From Oscillospiraceae bacterium (lineage in GTDB: Bacteria; Bacillota; Clostridia; UBA1381; UBA9506), in assembly GCA_015069045.1 (NCBI GenBank), contig SVJJ01000008.1, positions 1 through 64,000 on the forward strand: a stretch of DNA of 64,000 nt. Reading direction: 5' to 3'. Below, in pieces: positions 16,599 to 43,456 of the stretch. The translations under genes and the position numbers were made by a program. The stretch's first letter is position 1; each line of letters starts with the position of its first letter. The notes under the pieces are model-generated. The model ran no database searches and was not told the origin of the DNA. It saw only the letters and a list, made by a program, of their open reading frames with translations.

Positions 16599-16685
16599 GG
16601 AGAGGTGTCCGAGCGGTTTAAGGAGCTGGTCTTGAAAACCAGTGATGCGAGAGCACCGTGAGTTCGAATCTCACCCTCTCCGCCA
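16599..16685 (+). tRNA. tRNA-Ser (anticodon UGA)
   Basis: Acceptor stem GGAGAGG / CCTCTCC, anticodon loop CTTGAAA in a CTGGT/ACCAG stem, a long class-II variable arm, T-loop GTTCGAATC, and encoded CCA at 16683-16685. Decodes UCA and related Ser codons. Confidence 0.95.
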
Positions 16686-16723
16686 TCATTTTTCTTAATT
16701 TAATATGTATCATAATTCGACAC

Positions 16724-16815
16724 GGAGAAGTACTCAAGTTGGCCGAAGAGGCGCCCCTGCTAAGGGTGTAGGTCGGGAAACCGGCGCGAGAGTTCAAATC
16801 TCTCCTTCTCCGCCA
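16724..16815 (+). tRNA. tRNA-Ser (anticodon GCU)
   Basis: Acceptor stem GGAGAAG / CTTCTCC, anticodon loop CTGCTAA, long variable arm, T-loop GTTCAAATC, encoded CCA. Lies 38 bp after the first tRNA-Ser and is probably co-transcribed. Decodes AGC/AGU. Confidence 0.95.
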
Positions 16816-17029: not shown

Positions 17030-17215
17030 TTGTAGCCCCGCCATGCCGTGTATAGGATTAATTTTTACCTGCCTAAGCAGGTGGGTATTCTCCCACACGT
17101 TTTATATGTCCCCTGGCCGATAAACGGGGGGCGTATATGCTGCGCATGGAGCCGAATTCCCTATTAATAAGTGTTGGTAAAATAAAAATCACTAATCACG
17201 CACATCGCAGGAAAA
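17030..17215 (+). ncRNA. Candidate structured non-coding RNA upstream of fructokinase
   Basis: A GC-richer block in AT-rich DNA that folds as a branched structure. CCATGC (17041-17046) pairs with GCATGG (17144-17149). CGTGT (17047-17051) pairs with ACACG (17095-17099), enclosing a CCTGC/GCAGG hairpin. TATATG (17103-17108) plus CCCC pairs with GGGG plus CGTATA (17132-17137). ATAGG (17052-17056) can also pair with CCTAT (17160-17164), crossing the outer helix as a pseudoknot would. Ends are uncertain. A clostridial RNA such as the raiA motif is one possibility; I cannot confirm the family. The separate fructokinase promoter downstream argues for an independent RNA rather than a riboswitch. Confidence 0.5.
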
Positions 17216-17299
17216 TTTTCTATTGTTATTATAACACTAAATGGAGAAAATATCAAGAGATATTTAAATATTTTTTGTTAAACTGTGTACGGTTTTGTC

Positions 17300-34768: not shown

Positions 34769-34993
34769 ATGGCTGAGAAGAAAAGTTTTGAAAAAAACAT
34801 GGCTGAATTAGAACAAATTGTTGCGGCGTTGGAAGCCGGACAAATTGAATTGGATGAATCCCTTATGTTATTTGAAAAAGGCATTAAACTTTCTAAAACC
34901 TGTCAGAGGCTTTTAGATCAAGCCGAACAAAAGGTGGTTCGACTTACACAAACAGAAAACGGAGAAATAACAGAAGAACCCTTTGAAGAATAA
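34769..34993 (+). CDS. xseB: Exodeoxyribonuclease VII small subunit
   Basis: A 74-residue helical protein with the family core FEKNMAELEQIVAALEAG at residues 6-23, then ELDESLMLFEKGIKLSKTCQ. It pairs with XseA to degrade single-stranded DNA. Unusually, xseA is not next to it: trmL stands where xseA is expected, so the large subunit gene must be elsewhere. Confidence 0.93.
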   Translation: MAEKKSFEKNMAELEQIVAALEAGQIELDESLMLFEKGIKLSKTCQRLLDQAEQKVVRLTQTENGEITEEPFEE

Positions 34994-35029: not shown

Positions 35030-35908
35030 ATGGATTTTTTAGCTGAATTTGAAGAAAAAATTAATCAGGTTAATCAGTCTTTGCAAAAATATTTTATGAA
35101 AAACGAAAATTACCAAATGTCCATATACGATGCTATGGAGTATAGTCTGTTTTCCGGCGGCAAACGCATTCGACCTGTGCTTTGTGTTGCATGTGCGGAA
35201 CTGTTCGGAAATGCAGAGGATGCTATGCCATTTGCTTGTGCCATTGAAATGATACACACATATTCATTAATTCATGACGATTTGCCTTGTATGGATGATG
35301 ATGATTTACGACGTGGGAAACCCACGAATCATATTATATATGGTGAAGCTATGGCTGTGCTGGCAGGAGATGCTCTTTTAAATTTAGCTTTTGAAACGGC
35401 TCTTCAGCACTCCAAGGCAACCCCGGCACAAACATTAGAGGCTGTTAAAATTATTGCTGAATCTGCCGGGACAGAGGGTATGATTGGTGGCCAGGTAATT
35501 GATTTGGAATCAGAAGGTAAGGACGTTGATGCAGTCACATTAATGGCCATGCATGTACATAAAACCGGTGCGCTTATGATGGCACCTGCCAAGGTTGGTG
35601 CATTAATTGGTGGCGGTACAAAAGAAGATATTCTAAACATGGAAAAGTTTGCGCGTTATTTAGGAGTTGCTTTTCAAATTAAAGATGATATTTTAGATGT
35701 AGAAAGCACTACAGAGATTTTAGGTAAGCCAATTGGTAGTGATAAATTAAACGAAAAAACAACATTTGTAACATTATATGGCATGGAACAATCTCGCAAG
35801 ATGTTAGAGGATTATACACAAAATGCCATAGCAACTTTGGAAGAATATGGTGATCGAGCAGCCTTTTTAAAGGAATTATCTTTGTTCTTGTTGCGTAGGG
35901 ACAGATAG
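35030..35908 (+). CDS. ispA: Farnesyl/geranyl diphosphate synthase
   Basis: Makes C15 (or C10) prenyl diphosphate from IPP and DMAPP. 292 residues. First aspartate-rich motif DDLPCMDDDDLRRGK near residue 84, GGKRIRPVL near 43, GGQVIDLESEG near 155, and second motif FQIKDDILDVES near 218. The xseB-ispA order is typical of Firmicutes. Its position before DUF212 and a large RNA is the classical neighbourhood of OLE RNA. Confidence 0.95.
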   Translation: MDFLAEFEEKINQVNQSLQKYFMKNENYQMSIYDAMEYSLFSGGKRIRPVLCVACAELFGNAEDAMPFACAIEMIHTYSLIHDDLPCMDDDDLRRGKPTNHIIYGEAMAVLAGDALLNLAFETALQHSKATPAQTLEAVKIIAESAGTEGMIGGQVIDLESEGKDVDAVTLMAMHVHKTGALMMAPAKVGALIGGGTKEDILNMEKFARYLGVAFQIKDDILDVESTTEILGKPIGSDKLNEKTTFVTLYGMEQSRKMLEDYTQNAIATLEEYGDRAAFLKELSLFLLRRDR

Positions 35909-35952: not shown

Positions 35953-36414
35953 ATGGTGATCATTTTGAACTTTTTTAATGAACTTTGTCAAAATAAAATA
36001 TTGATTGCGGCAATATTAGGCTGGCTTATTGCGCAAGTACTTAAAGTGATATTTGTGCGGATAAAGGAAAAGCGGTTTGATTTACGACGCATGATTGGCT
36101 CAGGAGGAATGCCCAGTTCTCACTCTGCTTTTGTAATAGCCATGACAACCGCTGTGGCCTTTGAATGTGGTTTGTCATCACCTATTTTTGCGGTATGTGT
36201 CGTGGTTGCATTTGTCGTTATGTATGATGCATCCGGTGTTAGACGAGAAACAGGTCGACAGGCTGAAATCCTTAATGATATTATTGAAAACATAGGTAAG
36301 GATACACCGGAGGTTATGGGTAAAAGATTAAAAGAATTAATCGGCCATAGTCCCTTTGAGGTGGCTGTTGGTGCTATCTTAGGTTTTATTATTGGATTTC
36401 TATTTTATATTTAA
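35953..36414 (+). CDS. Divergent PAP2 family membrane protein (DUF212), candidate OLE-associated protein OapA
   Basis: A 153-residue membrane protein with three to four helices and the family signature GSGGMPSSHSAFVIAMTTAVA near residue 49, plus YDASGVRRETGRQAE near 91. As I recall, the OLE RNA-associated protein OapA belongs to this DUF212 family and is encoded next to OLE RNA. The gene lies 44 nt after ispA and about 140 nt before the large RNA here, which fits that pairing. The start codon is uncertain because no strong ribosome-binding site precedes 35953. Confidence 0.8.
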   Translation: MVIILNFFNELCQNKILIAAILGWLIAQVLKVIFVRIKEKRFDLRRMIGSGGMPSSHSAFVIAMTTAVAFECGLSSPIFAVCVVVAFVVMYDASGVRRETGRQAEILNDIIENIGKDTPEVMGKRLKELIGHSPFEVAVGAILGFIIGFLFYI

Positions 36415-36516
36415 GATTTCCTTTGATAATTGATGTGGAATTGTGCAACATAATGCTATGGTGAAAAGGTAGTTATTAATCCTTCTTTTTGTTACTTTTA
36501 AGAGATTAATTTCTAT

Positions 36517-36545
36517 TTGACGAATTGTGGAATTTATGTTACAAT
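36517..36545 (+). promoter_or_regulatory. Promoter of the large non-coding RNA
   Basis: TTGACG, 17 bp, TACAAT with an upstream TG. Initiation is expected at about 36552, right at the 5' arm of the RNA's closing helix. Confidence 0.75.
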
Positions 36546-36554
36546 GAATGTCAT

Positions 36555-37187
36555 AAGAGTGGTGCAGTATCCTTAGTCAGATCTTCTCATTCCCAGGACG
36601 GGCCTAAAAATCCGTTGAAGGGCACATCGATGAAGTTTCTGGTGCTTGCTTTCGACGCCCAGTCGGGGGTTGGTGCTGGGAGTTAAGGCTTAGGGGCGGC
36701 TTGCAATGGCATGTGAGATTCGACCCCTTTGCCGTGGAGACCTGCTCTTGTGTTCCAAAGTGCGCCGGCAGGGCTTGCCTTGTGGACGCGGCGGGATACG
36801 AAGCAGGATTAAACCTGTCAGGCGGTGTGATTTTGCCTATGGTAAAGGAGCGCTGCGGACAGCGTAGCCTGCCTTGAGTGGTATTGGCGGATAGCGGATC
36901 AAACATAAGGCCTTCGGCCAAAGGCTTTGTGTTATTGCTGCTTGAAACTTCTATTGCAAAAGAGGCTAAGAATGAGCTTGACTGTTTGGGAAAACCTCTA
37001 GGCTGTTCCAAATGGAGATGCACTGAGGATTGCAGTGCGGACTTAAGTGGTGATTCGGTTCCGCGATGGGTAACCGCGCGGGTAGAGTATGAAAGGGAAA
37101 CCGCTGATTTGGCGACATTTCAGTTGCTCTACGGGAAAGCCTACCGGACCTAAACCGCAAAATTTACTCAGGGGCATTACCACTCTT
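36555..37187 (+). ncRNA. OLE-type large structured RNA
   Basis: About 633 nt with no plausible ORF, markedly more GC-rich than its surroundings. The two ends pair: AAGAGTGGT (36555-36563) with ACCACTCTT (37179-37187). Many internal hairpins are visible, for example GGCC-TTC-GGCC (36908-36918), GCACTG/CAGTGC (37018-37036) and a CGCG/CGCG stem near 37073. It has its own sigma-A promoter. Size (OLE is about 600-650 nt), the ispA-DUF212 context and presence in anaerobic Firmicutes all match OLE (ornate, large, extremophilic) RNA, a membrane-associated ribonucleoprotein linked to stress tolerance. The identification is by context and architecture, not by alignment. Confidence 0.8.
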
Positions 37188-37213
37188 TTACACTGTGTCA
37201 TTAAAATTAATTA

Positions 37214-37242
37214 AGGACTTTGCAATGCTATTGCAAAGTCCT
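37214..37242 (+). terminator. Terminator after the large RNA
   Basis: AGGACTTTGCAAT / ATTGCAAAGTCCT with a 3-nt loop. The following T content is modest. Confidence 0.7.
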
Positions 37243-37307: not shown

Positions 37308-38255
37308 ATGGGGGATAAAATTATTTCAATTGTTGTATCGGTTTATAATGAAGAAGAATCATTAGACAAGTTTTACAAGGAAACCTTGTTGGTTTTGGAG
37401 GGGTTAACTTGGGACTACGAATTGGTTTTTGTTAATGATGGTAGTGTGGATAAGAGCAGAACGATGCTTGATGCCTTTGCCCATGAAAACAAAAAGGTAA
37501 AAGTTATTAATTTTTCAAGAAATTTTGGTCACGAGGCGGCAATGATAGCCGGCATTGATTATGCTAAGGGCGATTGCATTGTTTGCATGGATGCAGATTT
37601 ACAACATCCACCCCAAAGCATTCCCCAAATCATTAAAAAGTTTGAGGAAGGTTATGAAATCGTTTCTATGGTCAGAAGTTCAAGAGCTGATGGTGGCTAT
37701 ATTAAAAAAATAACCTCTGCATTTTTTTATAAAATCTTAAATATGTTATCTCCGATTAAATTTGAACGCAATGCCTCTGATTTCTTTGCTATATCCAATA
37801 AGGTAGCCCATGTTTTACGAACAAACTATCGAGAGCAAGTTCGATATTTACGGGGATTTGTACAAAGCGTTGGTTTTAAAAAGGCAACACTTGCTTATGA
37901 TGCCCAAAGCAGAGTGGCAGGCGAAAGTAAATATAACATCCGCAAACTCATTCAATTTTCCGTTACGACGATATGCAGTTTCTCTGATATGCCTTTAAAA
38001 CTTGGTATTTATTCGGGACTTTTTGTTGCACTTTTTGGTGTTGTACTGATGATATATACTATTATACAGAAATTTGTTCATGATGCACCGGGAGGCTATT
38101 CAACCATTATTGTTGCAATGTGCTTTATGTTTGCCATTTTACTCGGTGTTATCGGTATTATTGGGCAATATATCTCTGTTTTATTTATCGAAATTAAAAA
38201 ACGCCCTATGTATATTATTGACGAAACAAAAAATATGAATGATTCATTGAATTAA
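37308..38255 (+). CDS. Family 2 glycosyltransferase (polyprenyl-phosphate sugar transferase type)
   Basis: A 315-residue GT2 enzyme. SIVVSVYNEEESLDKFY near residue 6, VFVNDGSVDKS near 42, DADLQHPP near 96 (DxD metal site), and QVRYLRGFVQSVGF near 178. Two C-terminal membrane helices (about 230-255 and 265-290). It resembles GtrB/DPM1-type enzymes that load a sugar onto undecaprenyl phosphate. The GtrA-like protein encoded 22 nt downstream is the expected flippase partner, so the pair probably glycosylates a surface polymer. Confidence 0.88.
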   Translation: MGDKIISIVVSVYNEEESLDKFYKETLLVLEGLTWDYELVFVNDGSVDKSRTMLDAFAHENKKVKVINFSRNFGHEAAMIAGIDYAKGDCIVCMDADLQHPPQSIPQIIKKFEEGYEIVSMVRSSRADGGYIKKITSAFFYKILNMLSPIKFERNASDFFAISNKVAHVLRTNYREQVRYLRGFVQSVGFKKATLAYDAQSRVAGESKYNIRKLIQFSVTTICSFSDMPLKLGIYSGLFVALFGVVLMIYTIIQKFVHDAPGGYSTIIVAMCFMFAILLGVIGIIGQYISVLFIEIKKRPMYIIDETKNMNDSLN

Positions 38256-38277: not shown

Positions 38278-38685
38278 ATGACACAAGTATTGGATAAAAC
38301 AGCCATTAAATTTGTTTTAGTTGGTATGATTAATACATTAGTGGGAACAGGCGTTATGTTCTTGCTTTATAATGTAGTTCACGTAAATTATTGGATTTCA
38401 TCTGCAGCCAATTACATAGTCGGAAGCATTGTCAGTTATGTGTTAAATAAATATTTTACCTTTCAAAACAAAGAAAAGTCATGGAAGCAGCTTGTAAAAT
38501 TTATTGTTAATATATCCATTTGCTATTTGTTAGCCTATGGTATAGCAAAGCCCTTGGTGTCGTACATTTTATCATCCTTTTCTACAATAATTAAAGAAAA
38601 TATCGCCATGCTTGTTGGTATGGGATTCTTTGTTATTTTTAATTACATAGGCCAAAGATTCGTTGTATTTAAGCATGAAAATTAA
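38278..38685 (+). CDS. GtrA-like membrane protein
   Basis: A 135-residue protein with four predicted helices and the family pattern FVLVGMINTLVGTGVMFLLY near residue 11 and IVGSIVSYVLNKYFTF near 46. GtrA proteins are thought to flip undecaprenyl-phosphate-linked sugars. Same operon as the GT2 gene. Confidence 0.88.
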   Translation: MTQVLDKTAIKFVLVGMINTLVGTGVMFLLYNVVHVNYWISSAANYIVGSIVSYVLNKYFTFQNKEKSWKQLVKFIVNISICYLLAYGIAKPLVSYILSSFSTIIKENIAMLVGMGFFVIFNYIGQRFVVFKHEN

Positions 38686-40905: not shown

Positions 40906-41028
40906 ATGGAGGAAGATTATATAACGATCCATTTTACTTCAAATGGGCAGAGTTTAGAAGAAATCATTGCACAACTTGTAAAGAGTCAGGAGCAAGAAAA
41001 TGAAAAACAAAACAGCTTTATATCTTAG
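40906..41028 (+). CDS. Small 40-residue protein overlapping the recombinase gene
   Basis: Starts MEEDYITIHFTSNGQSLEE and ends in a charged, Gln/Glu/Lys-rich tail. A strong GGAGGTG site lies 5 nt before the ATG. It overlaps the recombinase start by 29 nt in another frame, so the two are translationally linked. I do not recognise a family. Its size, acidity and position suggest a regulator or recombination directionality factor for the recombinase, by analogy with the small SprB protein of SP-beta. This is inference. Confidence 0.6.
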   Translation: MEEDYITIHFTSNGQSLEEIIAQLVKSQEQENEKQNSFIS

Positions 41029-42301
41029 ACTGTCTCGTGACGATGAAAGGGCATCCGAGTCTGAAAGCATCAGTAATCAACGTGATTTTTTAATGCGCTA
41101 TGCACAAACAGAGGGGTTATATGTTGTTGACGTTTTTGTTGATGATGGTTATTCCGGCACGAGTTTTGATCGTCCGGACTTTAACAGACTTATTGCAATG
41201 ATAGAAGAAAAAAAGATTAATACGGTGCTTACCAAGGATTTATCCAGATTGGGTCGTGATTATATACAAACAGGATATTATTTAGAACAATATTTTCCTT
41301 TACATAATGTTCGCTATATTGCAGTAAATGATGGCATAGATACTGCCTTGCCCGGTGCCGGAAATGATATGTCGCCTTTTCGTGCTGTGTTTAATGATAT
41401 GTATGCCCGTGATATCAGTCAAAAGGTTCGTACAGCTCTTTACACCAAAAAAATAAATGGACAATTTATTGGCAGTCGGCCACCCTATGGTTATCAAAAA
41501 GAGATAAACAATAAAAACCGCTTATGTCCGCACGAAGAAACGGCTTTAGTAGTTAAAAAAATATTTAAGTGGTTTACATCAGGTCGTAACATTCGAGATA
41601 TTGTTTCTCTTTTAAATCAAAACAATGTTCCTCCTCCTTCGGCGCGATATCAAGAAAAAGGGGAGCAAAGATGCCGCGGTTGGAATGATACGATGGTAAA
41701 ACGCATTTTGTCTAACCCAACCTATGTGGGAGACTTAACACAAAATCGGGTGCGAAAAATTAATTATAAAGTGAATCGTAAAATTTCTCTACCTAAAGAT
41801 GAATGGATTACGGTATCGGCTACTCATATGCCACTCATATCCCGAGAACAGTTTATGGTTGCAGAACGGCTTTTGGAAGTTGGCAGTTATGACACAAGAG
41901 GACGAGGAAAGCGCAATCATCTTTTGTCCGGTCTTGTTTTTTGCAGGGATTGTGGCCAAAAAATGAGTTTTATGAATGAAAATAGGTTTGAAAGTTATTT
42001 GGTTTGCAGTAATTGGAGAAAGACAGGGAAGGATGGTGTGTGCACACCTCATTCTGTTAAGGAAAGGGAGTTAGAACGATTGGTTTTTTGCCAATTAACA
42101 CAGATAGCTATGGAATCAAACAGTACATTATTTAATAAATTCAATTTAATAAAACCAACTCGTGAGCTGCTTGTTATGCTTGTTGATAGAATTTATATTA
42201 ATCATCAAAAAAAAGTCGAGATTTACTTTCGATTTAAAAATCCTGAATTATTTAAAGAAAATAGACAAAAAAATGACCATGGAAGCAGGGGAAATCAGTA
42301 G
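41000..42301 (+). CDS. Serine recombinase (site-specific, large serine integrase type)
   Basis: A 433-residue recombinase. N-terminal resolvase domain with catalytic Ser12 in YLRLSRDD, DDGYSGTSFDRPDFNRL near 48 and TKDLSRLGRDY near 70. A Recombinase domain follows (about 155-270, with PPYGYQK and the IRDIVSLLNQNNVPPP segment). The zinc ribbon begins with FCRDCGQKMSF (Cys314, Cys317) and continues with two more Cys near 335-347. The C-terminal coiled region is short, so it is on the small side for the class (SpoIVCA is about 500). It lies beside the left junction and is the obvious candidate for excising the dpaA element. Confidence 0.93.
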   Translation: MKNKTALYLRLSRDDERASESESISNQRDFLMRYAQTEGLYVVDVFVDDGYSGTSFDRPDFNRLIAMIEEKKINTVLTKDLSRLGRDYIQTGYYLEQYFPLHNVRYIAVNDGIDTALPGAGNDMSPFRAVFNDMYARDISQKVRTALYTKKINGQFIGSRPPYGYQKEINNKNRLCPHEETALVVKKIFKWFTSGRNIRDIVSLLNQNNVPPPSARYQEKGEQRCRGWNDTMVKRILSNPTYVGDLTQNRVRKINYKVNRKISLPKDEWITVSATHMPLISREQFMVAERLLEVGSYDTRGRGKRNHLLSGLVFCRDCGQKMSFMNENRFESYLVCSNWRKTGKDGVCTPHSVKERELERLVFCQLTQIAMESNSTLFNKFNLIKPTRELLVMLVDRIYINHQKKVEIYFRFKNPELFKENRQKNDHGSRGNQ

Positions 42302-42422: not shown

Positions 42423-42488
42423 AACATTGAGAATAATGTATTAATCATTTGTTGTTAAAAGAGATTGCATCATGCGGAGGGAAAAAAG

Positions 42489-43456
42489 ATGGAAATTTTT
42501 TATCTTACACTTAAACAAATGCTGACGATGTTTACGCTTATTCTTGTATGTTTTTTATTACGCAAGGCAAGTAAACTGCCAGAAAATTCTGCTAATGTAA
42601 TGTCAAAAATGGAAATGTATATTTTTCTTCCTGCACTTTCATTGTATACACAAATGACCAAATGCACGGTTCAAACCTTTGCGGAAAATGCATCTCTTAT
42701 ATTATACGGACTGCTTATTGTTTTATCTGCCATTCTTCTTTCGTACCCCTTATCGAGACTTTTTGTGAAAAACAGTAACAGTTCACCGGCACTTTCCTAT
42801 CAAAAAAAATATTTCAATATGCATTGACATTTGGAAATTATGGATATATGGGCAACTATATAATTCTTGGTATATGGGGAAACGATGTTTATTATAAATA
42901 TTCGTTGTTTGTCTTATTGATAAGCATTCTGTGTAACTGTTGGGGATTATACATATTGATGCCAAAAGAGATGAACACAAGTTTATGGTATAATATTAGA
43001 AAAAGTTTTATACAGCCCCCAATGCTCGCTTTGATTGTCGGTATGGTATGTGGGCTTTTAAATTTGGCGCAATATGTGCCTGACTTCCTGATTAATGCAT
43101 TTAAAAATGCAGGGGACTGTCAGGGGCCGGTTGCAATGATTTTAGCCGGTTTTGTAATTGGTGGCTATAATTTTAAAAGGTTGTTAGTAAACAAAAAGGT
43201 GTATGTGATTTCTTTCTTGAGGCTGTTGGTTATTCCTTCGGCTATGATGATTGTATTAAAGCTTTTGGGTATACATAAGGAGATCATGATATTAGCATTG
43301 ATTGCTTTTGCCACACCCATTGGGCTGAATACAATTGTGTATCCGACAGCTTACGGCGGCGATACAAAAATAGGTGCATCCATGTCTATGATTTCTCACG
43401 TTCTATCGGTGGTCACAATTCCGCTTATGTATTATATTTTCATTGTATGGTTGTAG
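42489..43456 (+). pseudogene. AEC-family auxin efflux carrier-like permease, interrupted by a frameshift
   Basis: The first frame (from ATG 42489, GGAGG upstream) encodes the N-terminal helices and stops at 42827. The remainder continues in the -1 frame from about 42809, with ALTFGNYGYMGNYIILGIWG and six further helices to 43456. The shift falls on a run of eight As at 42802-42809. One extra A, or -1 ribosomal slippage on that run, would give one protein of about 322 residues, the normal AEC length. It may be a pseudogene, a phase-variable gene or a sequencing error. AEC permeases export or import small organic anions. Confidence 0.75.

Follow-up and report, generated by a model that had tools for sequence, protein, structure and literature searches.

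The window analysed here, a stretch of 64,000 nucleotides from an Oscillospiraceae bacterium, carries on its forward strand xseB (exonuclease VII small subunit; PF02609) at 34769–34993, ispA (polyprenyl, or farnesyl diphosphate, synthase; PF00348, 210 bits) at 35030–35908, and a gene for a membrane protein at 35953–36414 that belongs to the DUF212 family (PF02681, divergent PAP2; 173 bits), as an earlier note made from the sequence alone had correctly stated. A 633-nt element follows, which as read from the sequence starts with AAGAGTGGT at 36555 and ends with ACCACTCTT at 37187. Beyond it, 109 nt after ole and in the place usually held by oapA, begins a pair of genes on the same strand, one for a GtrB-type glycosyltransferase (37308–38255; PF00535, PHROG 841) and one for the GtrA-family membrane protein paired with it (38278–38685; PF04138). 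The earlier note had described a 633-nt, GC-richer, gene-free RNA located after xseB-ispA and the DUF212 gene, and the coordinates, base composition and open reading frames bear this description out. The G+C content is 0.51 in the OLE match compared to 0.38–0.40 in the flanks, the element folds 3.2 s.d. better than shuffled sequences, and the open reading frames that overlap it seem to have arisen by chance within a conserved RNA, with no credible protein apparent inside.

The earlier note had proposed that this element is OLE RNA and had named a covariance search with RF01071 as the check. The cmscan result showed that the window from 36543 to 37199 (forward strand) matches RF01071 over its full length (model positions 1–616 of 616) with 498.3 bits and an E value of 3.3e-143, the curated gathering cut-off being 50 bits, and the proposal is thus fully supported. 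The same model gave no match in any of 14 well-known control genomes. When the whole window was compared with Rfam at gathering thresholds, the only matches other than OLE were a 6S RNA (17031–17216, reverse strand; 88 bits, threshold 46) and two tRNA genes (16599–16812, forward strand), and the better match to another large RNA family against which the note had cautioned was not among them. Judged by its sequence, the region 36543–37199 is a genuine full-length OLE RNA, of a kind already known from many Gram-positive bacteria.

To examine the structure, the Rfam structure was placed on an alignment of ten relatives together with a closing helix that Rfam leaves unpaired, formed by 36555–36563 with 37179–37187. 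Of the nine pairs of this helix, five change on both sides among the 10 relatives and four never vary. The pairing ends reported in the earlier note are therefore real, with compensatory changes in 5/9 pairs, and this evidence is independent of the Rfam model. Over the whole structure of 167 pairs, 71 showed changes on both sides compared to 40 in shuffles, and none of 500 shuffles reached so high a number. The proportion of paired cells was 89.8% and fell to 38–48% when the partners were slid by 1–3 columns, a control that leans towards the Rfam structure, since related sequences went into building the Rfam part. The P4 A-rich loop, P5.1 and P6.1 and the P9 GGCC palindrome have been published as dimer contacts (PMC12265935, PMC12286853); in the alignment, all of these loops have the same letters as in the sister genomes. 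Compared to the Rfam OLE model, the stem tips in the P7 and P8 region are longer here, as they are in the sister genomes. The bit score of 498 lies inside the sister-genome range of 494–514, and the RNA has three unique departures in the 320 columns where nine relatives agree, the range in the genus being 0–5. Since both the score and the substitution load are like those of the sisters, the RNA is without sign of decay.

A promoter of its own had also been claimed for the RNA. A site of the form TTGACG-17-TACAAT with TG before the −10 element is predicted at 36517–36545 (forward strand) by a promoter scan, a kind of scan that finds equally many sites in shuffled sequence. The extended −10 element (TATGnTAyAAT type) is found at the same place upstream of ole in 8 family members, while the other upstream sequence has diverged, and this conservation supports the claim more tellingly than the scan. 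Just 3′ of ole lies a hairpin of 13 pairs (37214–37242, forward strand), listed as a terminator only on the reverse strand; it is a poor intrinsic terminator for ole because it is without a T run on the forward strand.

OapA is a CNNM/DUF21-like protein with a DxxxD motif that co-occurs with ole almost completely (PMC11332333), and its gene is 'almost always' in tandem with ole (PMC9723947). A search of the genome with the CNNM model PF01595 was empty, but a proper OapA alignment later located the gene, so that the reading of OapA as absent was given up. PF01595 is insensitive to OapA because true OapAs score below its cut-off; the protein found here matches Pfam CNNM weakly (E 0.0024). The profile, built from 22 OapAs, hit a single place in the genome, positions 82566–83135 of another contig (C21), with 260 bits and an E value of 6.7e-78. 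The protein encoded there is intact, is 75% identical to the OapA of a sister genome over 175 aa and keeps the DxxxD motif (CNDVIGDI), as expected of the OapA family, but its gene is unlinked from ole in the assembly. It starts about 50 nt after an MFS transporter gene that has a good promoter-like sequence. With oapA on another contig behind the MFS gene, the RNA and its anchor would come from separate transcription units.

The other known partners were also found. A small KOW-type protein of 91 aa encoded between map and infA matches the solved OapB structure 7k9b over residues 6–88 (E 6.7e-11), and a YbxF/L7Ae-type k-turn-binding protein of 80 aa encoded between rpoC and rpsL matches PF01248 (45 bits) and YbxF 4lck (E 5e-9) and corresponds to OapC. 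The KOW Pfam model was discarded as an OapB finder, as it hit two places only (on contigs C11 and C9) and did not detect OapB; the protein was recognised from its position and the PDB match. The operon positions of OapB (map/infA) and OapC (rpoC/rpsL) are the known ones for these genes. No CNNM/MpfA protein, that is, no Mg2+ transporter MpfA, was found in the genome by the PF01595 search. OLE is reported to anticorrelate with MpfA (PMC11332333), and genomes with OLE usually show what is seen here, OapB and OapC present and MpfA not found.

The earlier note had taken the DUF212 protein upstream of ole for the membrane partner OapA. This assignment is refuted: the OapA profile left the DUF212 gene unmatched at E values up to 10, profiles of the DUF212 and OapA families could not be aligned (hhalign probability 0.2%), and the true OapA, which is CNNM/DUF21-like, lies on contig C21. 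Probably DUF21 had been confused with DUF212. The gene belongs to PF02681, a family not named as an OLE partner in the literature searched and with no detectable kinship with OapA. It is nevertheless a recurrent neighbour: in 14 of 42 loci, spread over at least five families, it separates ispA from ole. Distant families with 46–53% identity are among them, and besides the window the loci include L016, L019, L020, L027, L030, L032, L038 and L042. Its position directly upstream of ole and this recurrence could suggest that the DUF212 protein has taken over from OapA as the membrane anchor of OLE RNA. However, the two families share no similarity, an intact OapA is still present in the genome, and the other lineages with DUF212 by ole also have OapA directly downstream, which leaves such a replacement barely credible. 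A speculative and rather improbable idea is that the DUF212 protein instead works with the OLE particle as a companion not yet recognised, perhaps as a lipid- or prenyl-phosphate phosphatase that connects the particle with isoprenoid and cell-wall metabolism; linkage to ispA could explain the association just as well. In the literature search, OLE RNA and DUF212 were never mentioned together, although a 2023 neighbourhood survey (cited in PMC12265935) may record the association.

Among the 166 genomes in which both ole and oapA could be placed from listed positions, oapA shares contig and strand with ole in 165, at a distance of −11 to 497 nt downstream, and the present genome is the sole exception. 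Counted by loci, an OapA-like gene follows ole in 41 of 42, the window being the exception. In two further genomes (G016 and G019) ole was found without a detected oapA, and in both ole lies less than 80 nt from a contig end. The tandem order is a usual trait and no requirement for membership, and here the two genes are on different contigs. Compared to the OLE RNAs of Halalkalibacterium halodurans and clostridia (RF01071), the locus has the same model match, closing helix, dimer-contact loops, ispA neighbourhood and OapA/OapB/OapC, whereas oapA is not adjacent and the glycosyltransferase and GtrA pair follows ole. The genes that follow oapA on C21 (LPG synthase, regulator, dehydrogenase, acyltransferase) have the same order as in the sister genome G004, and the order upstream of ole in the window is the same as in the sisters, indicating that ole and oapA were once part of an unbroken region that has since been split between them. 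The genes that now stand at the two junctions, the glycosyltransferase (best match 41%) and the MFS gene before oapA, have no close counterpart in the sister genomes, and the ancestral adjacency on that side is therefore untraceable.

The host assembly is a draft of 26 contigs and probably metagenomic, since its named relatives are MAGs (from water buffalo colon and goat cecum, among other sources), so that misassembly could account for the joins between ole and the glycosyltransferase gene and between the MFS gene and oapA. By this explanation the separation is an artefact of assembly or binning, and ole and oapA are adjacent in the living cell as in the relatives; the tandem order in 165 of 166 genomes and the species-specific genes at both junctions speak in its favour. 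However, both junctions are far from contig ends (at 37 kb of an 81-kb contig and at 82 kb of a 121-kb contig), so that two independent misjoins would be needed. A repeat search at the ole junction found only its own hairpin and chance-level matches, and no repeat likely to cause a misjoin. Tetranucleotide composition is alike across both junctions (correlations 0.955–0.98), and no second copy or remnant of ole or oapA was found in the genome. An artefact thus has an appreciable but minor chance of being the explanation, and the separation of ole and oapA is likely to be a real rearrangement. Acquired DNA at the ole breakpoint is a possible cause of it. The GtrB/GtrA pair begins next to this breakpoint, and a serine recombinase (Resolvase, Recombinase and zinc-ribbon domains; PHROG 95, phage integrase) is encoded at 41000–42301 (forward strand), about 3.8 kb beyond the broken ole neighbourhood. 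At 42465–43456 (forward strand), two open reading frames in different frames match the start and the end of a membrane transport family (PF03547), which suggests that this gene is frameshifted or broken.

As the only genome of the 166 with a broken ole-oapA pair, this one could hold a decaying remnant of OLE RNA, left behind after the rearrangement split the two genes. Against this, the score and substitution load are like those of the sisters, the promoter is kept, and OapA, OapB and OapC are all intact; decay is accordingly very improbable. With high confidence, the element is a functional OLE RNA gene of full length, served by a sigma-70-type promoter of its own; its RNA would contribute to a membrane-bound stress particle, and oapA is no longer its neighbour in this genome.

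OLE was found in 37 of 61 relatives and in 188 of the 249 genomes sampled from the phylum, and published work has already surveyed OLE RNAs across GTDB (PMC11332333). The statement that only a minority of species carry the RNA, and that this occurrence adds a lineage, is not supported by these counts; since OLE is common in the phylum, the locus does not add a lineage. Within the genus, three genomes (G002, G007 and G009) contain neither ole nor oapA, which is consistent with joint loss; two of these genomes are less than 90% complete.

OLE RNA is among the largest structured bacterial RNAs whose biochemical function is unknown. In H. halodurans, OLE is localised to the membrane via OapA and helps the cells to tolerate cold, alcohols, Mg2+ and poor carbon sources (PMC11332333, PMC12265935). 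From this homology we infer that the RNA is expressed, forms a complex, is located at the membrane and has a stress role here too. The transcript of about 630 nt would dimerise and bind OapA, which it would anchor at the membrane, as well as OapB and OapC, and the resulting membrane-bound particle would act in the response to the same stresses. In this organism ole and oapA would be transcribed as separate units, and the upstream DUF212 gene would be a recurrent neighbour rather than the anchor. The locus adds little to the distribution of OLE, and its gene order is a rare exception of modest interest. It does correct a wrong partner assignment, DUF212 not being DUF21/OapA, and it points to DUF212 as a recurrent ole neighbour that is worth testing. 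A real separation would show that cotranscription of ole and oapA is dispensable, as both are intact in separate transcription units.
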